Shown: positions 51,996-54,311 of the stretch, in pieces
Layout of the letters: each line of letters starts with the position of its first letter
Numbering within the stretch: position 1 is the stretch's first letter
DNA from: Pirellulaceae bacterium
GTDB lineage: Bacteria; Planctomycetota; Planctomycetia; Pirellulales; Pirellulaceae
Assembly (NCBI GenBank): GCA_026004775.1
Contig: BPJU01000005.1
Coordinates: 62,001 to 126,000, forward strand
DNA: 64,000 nt
Reading direction: 5' to 3'
Translations under genes and position numbers: made by a program
The notes under the pieces: generated by a model
Told to the model about the DNA's origin: nothing
Databases searched by the model: none
What the model saw: only the letters and a program-made list of their open reading frames with translations

Positions 51996-54311
51996 TCACG
52001 CTGCGCGGCGGCGCCGCGTGATGTTCGTCCGGGTTGCCGGCTGCTCCTCCGGTTCCTCATCCTCCGCGTCCGTACTCCCATAACCGTAGCCGTAACCATA
52101 ACCGTAGCCGTAACCATAGCCATACTGGTCGGCCTCGTCTGGGATGCGGTTGGCCACCACCCCCACCAGTCGCACGCCCATGGCCAGCAATTGTTCCACG
52201 GCGCGCAGCACCACGTGCCGTCGGTTTTTGGGAGGCTGTACGACCAGGATCATCCCGTCGACCTGGCGGCCGACGATCATGGCGTCGCTGGCAGCCACCA
52301 CCGGCGGGCAATCGACGATCACCTGGTCGTAGTGGCGCTCAGCCCAGGCAATGACGTCGGCGAACCGACTGTGGCTCAGTAGTTCGGCCGGATTGGAAGG
52401 CTTGGCACCGCAGGGCAGCAGGTCAAGCTGCGGGCAGCCCGTGGGCCGCACATACGAGGCACAGAGCGCGGCGGTCTCCTGCTCGGACCGCAGAATATCG
52501 CTCAGCCCGGGCAGCCGGCGCACGTCGAATCGCTTGCTCAATCCCGGACGGCGCAGATCGGCGTCGATGAGCAGTGTGCGGCGACCGGCTTGTGCGTAGA
52601 CCGCGGCGACATTGGCCGACACGGTCGTCTTGCCGTCGCCCGGCTCGGCACTCGTGACAGCCAGCCGGGTCAGTTCGTCGGGCATGAACGCCAACTGGGT
52701 ACGCAACGTGCGGAACGGCTCGCTCAGCGGCGAGGTGGCATGCACTTGGACGAACAGACTTTCGGCCCCGGTCTGCGACTCGATGGGCAGCTCGCGCACC
52801 GCAGCCAGCAGCGGCACGCGCAATTGCGCTTTGAGCTCGTCGGCCGACCGGAACCGGTCGTCGACCAGGTCCATCAGGTAGACCAAACCGGTGCCGATAC
52901 TGAACCCCAGTGACAGGCTCAAGAACAACACCAGAGCTTTGCGCGGGGCGACCGGTTTTGTCAGCGCCGCCGGGCGGCTCAGCAAAGCCACCCGCACGTC
53001 AGCCTGGTCCTGCCGCAGGTCGATGTTGGCGATCCGATCCAGCAAGGTATCGTGCAGGTTCCGCAGGCGCTGAAGGTTGTTCTCGAGAATCTGGAGTTCG
53101 GCCATGCGGTCGTTCAAAGCGATCGCTTCCCGTTCGGCCTGCTCGTACTCGATCTGGAGTTCCTTCTCATGAGCCCGTGCTTTGTAGAGTCGTTCTTCGA
53201 CGAGCTGGAGCAGCATCGGACCCAATTGGCCGGCCTGGAGAGCTTCCAGGCGTTGTTGGACGCGCGCCTGGTAATCGCGCAAGTATTGCTGTTGATTAGC
53301 CACGGTCTGTTCCAGCTCGACGACTTTCGGATGGCTCGGCCCGTAGTGCCGCCGCAGTGTTTCCAGACGAGCCGCATTCTCCAGTACGCGCCGTTCCACT
53401 TCCGCGGCCGCCTGGCTGATCTGCGGACTCAAGCCAAGCAGGTTCATCAAGAGTTCGCGGCCGACGATCGGCTCCAGCGCCAGAAGATGCTCGCCCAGTT
53501 CGCCGCCTTGCTGGATGGCATGGCGGATGGCATCGGCCATCGCCTCCAACTGGAGCCGCTCCTTCTGCACTTCCACGTATGCTTCGTTGAGCTTCACGGC
53601 GCGTTGCACCAGCGGGTGCACGACCGCGCCGCCGGAGCGAATTCCCAAGTCGCCGGCTTGGCGCTGCACTTCCAGCAGCCGGGCTTGGGTTTGTTTGAGT
53701 TCGTCCTCTTTTTCTTGACGCTTTTGTTCGAGGATCGTGACGTATTCGAGCGACAGGTTTTTGTGGTTTTTTTCGATGAATTCCAGGTACGAGTCCACAA
53801 CGGCGCTCAACACCCGCTCGGCCGACTCGCGCGATACCGAGCGGTAGCTAAGATCGATGATATTCGTGCGCCGGGCGGCGGTGGCCCTCAGCCCATCACG
53901 CAGTTTCTCCAGCCACCGCTCGCGTGGCACTTCCTGGAAATCCCGGCGTGCCACGGGCGGCTGTTTTTCCAGTTTGGCCAAAGCGTTTTCCAGCACGACC
54001 GGATAGAGGAAAAGTTTTTCGAAAGTGGGAATCGAATTGTCACGAACGCCATCCGCAGTAAGCGACGTATTCCAGGCATCACCGCCTACCTGCGTCACCA
54101 GCACCGCGGCGTTCGCCTGGTAAATGCGCGGCGCGGTCCCCAAATAAAACACTCCCAGTAGCCCGCAGATGGCAATGCTGCCGGCCAGGTACAACCTGCG
54201 GTAATAGAGCATGCGCAGGAAGCGCAGCGCCGACTGGACCAGTTCGGCGGCTGCCGGATGGCCCGCGGTGCTGGTCGCTTCACAACCTGCTGCCTGGTCC
54301 GCCCCCTGCAT
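51996..54311 (-). CDS. Wzc-like polysaccharide copolymerase and bacterial tyrosine kinase
   Basis: 771 residues. A Wzz-like first part with two membrane helices (near 45 and 455), long coiled-coil segments between them, then a BY-kinase domain with Walker A 'SAEPGDGKTTVSANVA', A' 'LLIDADLRRPG' and B 'YDQVIVDCPPVV'. It controls chain length and export and is switched by Tyr phosphorylation. The tail has Tyr-Gly repeated eight times (730-745), then an acidic stretch and 'RRRRAA'. The Wza-like gene is 12 bp upstream; the counteracting YwqE-type phosphatase is at 59459. Good ribosome site (AGGAGGC) before the ATG. Confidence 0.94.
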   Translation of the reverse strand: MQGADQAAGCEATSTAGHPAAAELVQSALRFLRMLYYRRLYLAGSIAICGLLGVFYLGTAPRIYQANAAVLVTQVGGDAWNTSLTADGVRDNSIPTFEKLFLYPVVLENALAKLEKQPPVARRDFQEVPRERWLEKLRDGLRATAARRTNIIDLSYRSVSRESAERVLSAVVDSYLEFIEKNHKNLSLEYVTILEQKRQEKEDELKQTQARLLEVQRQAGDLGIRSGGAVVHPLVQRAVKLNEAYVEVQKERLQLEAMADAIRHAIQQGGELGEHLLALEPIVGRELLMNLLGLSPQISQAAAEVERRVLENAARLETLRRHYGPSHPKVVELEQTVANQQQYLRDYQARVQQRLEALQAGQLGPMLLQLVEERLYKARAHEKELQIEYEQAEREAIALNDRMAELQILENNLQRLRNLHDTLLDRIANIDLRQDQADVRVALLSRPAALTKPVAPRKALVLFLSLSLGFSIGTGLVYLMDLVDDRFRSADELKAQLRVPLLAAVRELPIESQTGAESLFVQVHATSPLSEPFRTLRTQLAFMPDELTRLAVTSAEPGDGKTTVSANVAAVYAQAGRRTLLIDADLRRPGLSKRFDVRRLPGLSDILRSEQETAALCASYVRPTGCPQLDLLPCGAKPSNPAELLSHSRFADVIAWAERHYDQVIVDCPPVVAASDAMIVGRQVDGMILVVQPPKNRRHVVLRAVEQLLAMGVRLVGVVANRIPDEADQYGYGYGYGYGYGYGYGSTDAEDEEPEEQPATRTNITRRRRAA
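52078..52125 (-). repeat. Tandem 18-bp repeat encoding the Tyr-Gly tail of the Wzc-like kinase
   Basis: Two perfect adjacent 18-bp copies (plus-strand 52081-52098 and 52099-52116, each TAACCGTAGCCGTAACCA) and a partial third encode Tyr-Gly eight times. Copy-number change would stay in frame and alter the number of phosphorylatable Tyr residues by three per unit. Confidence 0.85.

Follow-up and report, generated by a model that had tools for sequence, protein, structure and literature searches.

A regular (Tyr-Gly)8 ladder in the tail of a planctomycete Wzc-like kinase as a probable autophosphorylation track

In the tyrosine autokinase Wzc of Escherichia coli, the C-terminal Y-x-Y-x-Y series is phosphorylated in the C-to-N direction, with one tyrosine (i) in the active site of a neighbour and the tyrosine at i-2 held in a pocket as the next to enter; the octamer becomes unstable after the fourth phosphate, and the extent of phosphorylation matters rather than any single tyrosine (PMC11986026). 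The same authors suggest that E675, an acidic pocket residue, excludes phosphotyrosine, and K701 of the K30 protein belongs to a reported ion pair. A cycle between octamer and monomer has also been described (PMC8285477). The present analysis concerns a 771-residue kinase of this kind encoded in a 64,000-nucleotide stretch of a Pirellulaceae bacterium genome (assembly GCA_026004775.1, contig BPJU01000005.1, positions 62,001 to 126,000; hereafter the window), the tail of which carries eight consecutive Tyr-Gly units, (YG)8. By analogy, this tract is best explained as an extended and regular form of the published Y-x-Y pattern; it is probably (at about 0.72) the track along which a Wzc-type co-polymerase kinase phosphorylates itself, in a manner like the Y-x-Y ratchet. 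The kinase and its parts are located in the window as follows:

51996..54311, minus strand: Wzc-like bacterial tyrosine kinase (BY-kinase) and polysaccharide co-polymerase, 771 amino acids (NCBIfam, Pfam and model match)
52623..52643, minus strand: Walker A motif PGDGKTT, residues 557-563, with K561 aligned to Wzc K540
52200..52226, minus strand: N696-A704, aligned with part of the Wzc tyrosine pocket
52077..52124, minus strand: (Tyr-Gly)8 tract, residues 730-745, seven overlapping YxY steps (open reading frame (ORF) translation)
52078..52118, minus strand: perfect 18-bp repeat, 2.3 copies (Tandem Repeats Finder, 100% match)
51999..52076, minus strand: post-ladder tail, residues 746-771, acidic linker then RRRRAA (translation; low predicted local distance difference test score, pLDDT)
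51999..52016, minus strand: RRRRAA tag, residues 766-771, its AA end shared by orthologues

The C-terminus reads NRIPDEADQ-(YG)8-STDAEDEEPEEQPATRTNITRRRRAA, followed by the stop. An earlier note on this DNA had taken (YG)8 for the tyrosine cluster of a BY-kinase in strictly alternating form, and both the translation and the kinase families bear this out. The tract it pointed to is real, with coordinates shifted by one base (52077-52124, not 52078-52125), and it does lie near the C-terminus, if not at the very end, being followed by 26 residues that form an acidic linker and then RRRRAA. The note's view that BY-kinases usually end in a loose tyrosine cluster was partly wrong, the YxY spacing having already been published (PMC11986026).

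The best curated family of the kinase is TIGR01007 (polysaccharide biosynthesis tyrosine autokinase; NCBIfam, scoring 170.3 bits where 108.05 is the threshold), and Pfam Wzz scores 25.6 against a cut-off of 25.5, with GNVR below its own cut-off. Structure prediction with a 43-protein alignment gave a model (mean pLDDT 82, predicted template modelling score 0.50) that resembles Wzc over residues 26-740 (7nhr_E; Z 33.7, 419 residues aligned, root-mean-square deviation (rmsd) 8.8). It also matches the kinase domain of Wzc (3la6) at Z 33.8, the matches to the Wzc and CapB kinase domains together lying at Z of about 34 and rmsd of 1.5-2.7. The two most hydrophobic 19-residue stretches, 459-477 and 40-58, stand where two membrane helices would be expected in the predicted topology, and the model thus has the PCP-2a (Wzc-type polysaccharide co-polymerase) architecture of two predicted helices flanking a periplasmic domain, with the kinase fused.

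Relatives were drawn from 149 genomes of the family (146 with a match) and 297 of the class (163 with a match at 1e-40). The 176 loci taken were the best-ranked of the match lists and are a non-random sample; one that ends before the tail (L023) was dropped, leaving 175, divided into an orthologue set (n = 108; scores of 350 bits or more, together with L085, which is truncated by its contig) and a divergent set (n = 67). One orthologue with a tail incomplete in its stretch (L073) enters the tyrosine counts and not the C-terminus counts, which cover 107 complete orthologues. A single-protein contig scan found no relative; an alignment-based search of named genomes gave 492, and the names attached to the best 80 are those of planctomycetes or simply 'bacterium'. 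The equivalents of Wzc K540, D564 and D642 are invariant across all 175 kinases, the K540 position being lysine in 108/108 orthologues and 67/67 divergent kinases. The residues of Walker A, A' and B are invariant in the 43 aligned proteins, as is E-x2-R-x2-R (E531, R534, R537), a motif of BY-kinases with a role in oligomerisation. Judged by sequence, the 771-residue protein therefore has the Walker motifs, the E-x2-R-x2-R motif and the C-terminal tyrosine cluster of a BY-kinase. The prolines of the tyrosine pocket are also retained (P536 in 101/108 and P645 in 108/108 orthologues), and the window kinase has both.

The tyrosine ladder is, on the sequences compared, real and widely shared among planctomycete kinases. 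The longest YG run in the 108 orthologues ranges from 1 to 10 units with a mode of 6, and their tails hold 2-14 tyrosines. In 69 distinct tail cores of orthologues, 322 tyrosine pairs stand at +2 where 147.8 would be expected, and in 63 cores of divergent kinases the figures are 310 and 203.3. The sequences share ancestry, and the excess is partly built in where a core is nearly all Tyr and Gly, which limits its weight for the phosphorylation track; pairs at +1 and +3 are depleted in both sets alike. The middle residue of YxY is other than Gly in 119 of the 310 instances in divergent kinases, so that what has been kept is the two-residue spacing and not the YG DNA unit alone. This bears on the idea that the tract is a sticky/spacer segment of low complexity, in which aromatic-glycine stickers cluster the kinase or keep the tail disordered and phosphorylation is secondary. 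Residues 732-771 do have pLDDT below 50, a prediction of disorder, and the YG composition, acidic linker and basic end would suit such a segment, but the tract follows the BY-kinase domain, where solved relatives bear Tyr-rich tails, and the spacing of tyrosines survives the replacement of Gly, which makes this explanation quite improbable.

Ladder length was compared between orthologues of graded identity, pairs that share ancestry and are not independent; the 14 closest (at least 90% identical; 13 between genomes and one within a genome, L022 and L068) form seven linked groups. The YG count differs in 1/11 pairs at 95% identity or above, 0/3 at 90-95%, 2/11 at 80-90%, 19/25 at 70-80% and 42/56 at 60-70%, and among the seven linked groups one differs. 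Whole-unit changes include one pair at 97.6% identity with 8 and 7 units and another, at 80%, with 7 and 5. Close relatives with equal counts often differ in the codons of the tract, and the closest relative found for the window kinase (L004, 65% identical) has exactly 8 YG units in different codons. At 70-80% identity the tract changes by 1.2 units (2.4 residues) and the linker behind it by 4.9 residues, at median lengths of 10 and 35 residues, so that the tract is proportionally no stabler than the linker; an argument for constraint on tract length from this comparison was dropped, since the tract changes proportionally at least as much. A mostly neutral repeat, in which a tail would function as long as it was rich in Tyr and the YG pattern is a remnant of mutation, would account for this and for the wide variation in length and purity. 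Against neutrality stand the +2 enrichment in both orthologue and divergent sets and the frequent retention of YG count through codon changes, and its probability is very low.

Apart from the proportional instability of the tract, several observations weigh against the phosphorylation track as modelled on Wzc. The longest +2 tyrosine run varies from 1 to 10, so ladder length is not fixed, and one relative (L188) has only two tail tyrosines. The position of E675 is acidic in 1/108 orthologues and 8/67 divergent kinases, and in the window it is valine (V700); basic residues stand nearby, at 673 in 108/108 and at 678 in 106/108 orthologues (arginine; R698 and R703 in the window). Position 701 is Glu in the window and basic in 8/108 orthologues. 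Because E675 is acidic in so few and 701 basic in so few, the comparison is with something like the Y-x-Y ratchet and not identical to it, and details of the ratchet in planctomycete kinases may differ from those in Wzc.

The window kinase shares with E. coli Wzc (K30 and K-12; PMC11986026 and PMC8285477; structures 7nhr, 9exo and 3la6) the kinase domain, the predicted full-length fold, the C-terminal YxY series and the pocket prolines. It differs in having eight perfectly alternating tyrosines, where the part of the K-12 tail examined has a longest YxY run of three, in lacking an acidic residue at 675, in the acidic linker and RRRRAA after the ladder, and in a PHP-type phosphatase in its cluster (no search was made for a Wzb-type enzyme). 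E. coli Etk (3cio) carries YSYGYNY in its tail, with four tyrosines at +2, a shorter run with mixed middle residues. Staphylococcus aureus CapAB is similar in its BY-kinase fold (3bfv, Z 34.0), with a CpsB_CapC phosphatase likewise present in the window, but in the window kinase the membrane part belongs to the same polypeptide chain. The literature matches listed, in a search with most subscription papers outside it, included none that describes a YG ladder in planctomycetes.

The motifs, predicted fold and ladder of the kinase, the +2 enrichment in its relatives, and the phosphatase and export genes in the window are what the analysis shows. How these might work together follows by analogy. 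A strict (YG)8 would offer seven Y-x-Y registers, each overlapping the next and each with its tyrosines separated by a small residue, permitting up to eight phosphorylations in even steps, presumably in the C-to-N direction. A CpsB-type phosphatase, encoded about 5 kb away and its putative partner, would reset the ladder, and ladder length could then set the lifetime of the assembled state and hence polymer length.

The earlier note had also proposed that the tract is encoded by perfect tandem DNA repeats, and that slippage could tune the number of phosphorylation sites in frame. The 18-bp period and its 100% match stand, yet the array amounts to only 2.3 copies: the run of period-18 identity is 23 bases, giving a perfect repeat of 41 bp, with the TAT GGC of the first unit and most of the GGG that encodes the final Gly falling outside it. 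The repeat was originally chosen by eye. The longest repeated codon run has p of 0.0095 and 0.009 (two runs) when codons are shuffled within the tract and 0.017 when they are drawn by genome usage. Among 82 distinct tracts of at least five YG units in related kinases, 4 reach p<0.05, which is about chance level, with the window's p the lowest. The YG repeat plainly exceeds chance at the protein level; the 18-bp DNA repeat of the window is modest and only mildly surprising. In the 6.14-Mb genome the (YG)4 DNA pattern occurs at a single place, the kinase tract (5 overlapping matches; 0 for a reversed-pattern control), and by this pattern the genome has no further YG tract. The same pattern, counted irrespective of gene, is present in 95/241 family genomes; one of these, G036, has 27 matches and therefore one or more long YG-rich places. 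Two divergent kinases (L211 and L212) have 11 and 12 consecutive YG units, exceeding the eight of the window.

In a slippage-tuned contingency locus, units would be gained and lost at a high rate and the number of phosphosites would vary within one population. The in-frame variation in copy number that the note foresaw does exist between species, as the range of 1-10 YG and the whole-unit differences (8 versus 7 at 97.6% identity, 7 versus 5) attest, and a few relatives have pure arrays, made of identical units (L100, L149, L153) or of six consecutive TATGGT (L195). The long pure array typical of such loci is not present in the window, its 2.3 copies of 18 bp being short, and the count differs in 1/14 closest pairs despite frequent codon differences. 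Across the 82 tracts, identical neighbouring 6-bp units are in deficit relative to codon shuffles (77 versus 100.6, z -3.7), the opposite of what fresh slippage would leave. Identical units three apart, at 18 bp, are in excess (87 versus 64.4, z +3.95), and lags 2, 4 and 5 give z of +1.0, -2.3 and +0.8. Both departures persist with the window excluded (lag 1, 77 versus 99.7; lag 3, 84 versus 63.5) and after thinning at 85, 70 or 60% identity in five draws each (lag 1, z -2.6 to -3.7; lag 3, z +2.5 to +4.4). The 18-bp excess leaves room for rare three-unit duplications, but it is treated as unexplained and not as proof of duplication because several lags were tested and, at fixed composition, a deficit at one lag forces an excess elsewhere.

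Slippage of perfect repeats as the means of tuning phosphosite number thus goes unsupported, and a contingency locus here is unlikely. As a habit of the whole family, slippage was rejected, codon shuffles and close pairs having given no support, the 18-bp excess aside. A frameshift reported in a Wzc-like gene of Akkermansia (PMC13055324) was set aside as a precedent, the repeat there being in another gene. The four relatives with pure 6-bp arrays (L195, L100, L149 and L153) are better candidates for slippage than the window. Ladder length is best read as a trait that evolves between species; the comparisons do not demonstrate a fast repeat switch, and the DNA of the window tract does not resemble a rapidly slipping repeat.

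The kinase lies among polysaccharide genes, several of which encode proteins that, like the kinase, end in Ala-Ala (AA). The assignments are from Pfam:

30269..31525, plus strand: glycosyltransferase, AA end
32237..33514, plus strand: Polysacc_synt_2 protein, AA end
34723..35727, plus strand: NAD-dependent epimerase, end ERRAA
35724..36326, plus strand: initiating sugar transferase (Bac_transf), end YQKAA
39687..40898, minus strand: glycosyltransferase, AA end
42829..43638, minus strand: GT2 glycosyltransferase, AA end
45861..47309, minus strand: Wzx-like flippase (Polysacc_synt), end ERKKAA
47324..49297, minus strand: CapD-like Polysacc_synt_2 protein, end RRRRAA
49288..51930, minus strand: O-antigen ligase/polymerase-like protein (Wzy_C) with TPR-like repeats, no AA end
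54324..55430, minus strand: Wza-like export protein (Poly_export, SLBB), no AA end
59459..60247, minus strand: CpsB/CapC-type (PHP) tyrosine phosphatase, end WWRRAA (CpsB_CapC, 178.8 bits)

The phosphatase at 59459..60247 is the likely partner of the kinase. Its ORF shares 244 bases with another minus-strand ORF, 58623-59702, a 359-residue frame that may start further downstream.

The AA end is found in 93 of the 107 complete orthologues and 0/67 divergent kinases; of the other 14 orthologues, seven end in VA, three in AG, two in SA and two in some other way. In 80 named loci, from genomes partly overlapping the first set, it recurs in 62/78 complete tails and in 28/38 of the tails that are new. 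Each of the four Ala codons appears at each of the two positions, and an origin as the by-product of one DNA motif is unsupported. Within the window, 10/37 ORFs of at least 200 residues end in AA, against 2/217 from 400 kb of the same genome (9/36 with the kinase excluded, p 4e-7). One of the ten, a 243-residue ORF at 19597-20328, lies beyond the cluster, ends in RRAA and has no Pfam match.

The association extends to other genomes. Near the orthologous kinase in 20 of them, kinase-like ORFs excluded, AA ends occur in 37/189 ORFs, against 3/194 near divergent kinases (20 loci; p 1e-9) and 4/203 in background (19 stretches; p 3e-9). These ORFs were chosen by length, so that antisense ORFs may have displaced some real genes, and the 20 stretches hold 17 kinase-like ORFs; one kinase-like ORF in the divergent control ends in AA (VNNAA). 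Genomes contribute unevenly, 8/20 orthologue neighbourhoods having no tagged neighbour. By class (ORFs of at least 150 residues, assigned by nearest window protein), AA ends are found in CapD 6/6, UDP-GlcNAc epimerase-like 6/7, second Polysacc_synt_2 3/4, GT4 3/4, sugar transferase 2/3 and unclassed 17/158; in the same neighbourhoods they are absent from Wza (0/15), ligase-TPR (0/16), AsnB (0/1) and epimerase (0/1). The untagged Wza and ligase-TPR classes would have their C-terminus outside the cytoplasm. Beside divergent kinases no AA end was found in CapD (0/3), sugar transferase (0/6) or GT4 (0/10). In wider sets of relatives the end occurs in 16/19 CapD and 1/23 CpsB proteins, the latter ruling out the phosphatase as a conserved bearer.

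Degradation is a candidate role for the tag, because the transfer-messenger RNA tag of this genome, ANNSLALAA, also ends in AA and Ala-Ala-COOH is the key element by which E. coli ClpXP recognises ssrA (PMC7652416). By analogy a degron is the natural guess, with a docking tag the main alternative. The window tag has the form of an Ala-Ala C-degron, a C-terminal AA on a tail predicted to be flexible and disordered; it differs from ssrA in having Arg and not Leu before Ala-Ala, and in being gene-encoded in many proteins and not added to stalled ones. A wider proposal is tentative and rather doubtful: that the shared tag, often R/K-x-A-A-COOH, is a common degradation or docking signal for joint assembly or removal of the synthesis machinery, and that the ladder 20 residues upstream in the kinase lets phosphorylation, or threading into a neighbouring subunit, hide or expose it, coupling polymer synthesis to turnover. 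It is weakened because eight tagged CapD-like proteins (8/8 genomes checked, six of one genus) come from genomes in which the kinases found are divergent and untagged, which also rules out a strict tie between the tag and the ladder-kinase subfamily. No description of the AA tag was among the literature matches listed, in a search with most subscription papers outside it.

The shared AA tag is unexpected and merits separate study; if confirmed, it would be a new way of marking the proteins of one polysaccharide system. The naturally non-acidic pocket of these kinases offers a test of how far direction depends on E675. In the ratchet model the lifetime of the Wzc octamer is linked to the spacing of the tyrosines and to the extent of phosphorylation (PMC11986026). 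The planctomycete kinases provide, within one family, a natural series of ladders whose longest runs have from one to ten tyrosines spaced exactly two residues apart, so that a relation of ladder length to polymer length can be tested directly.

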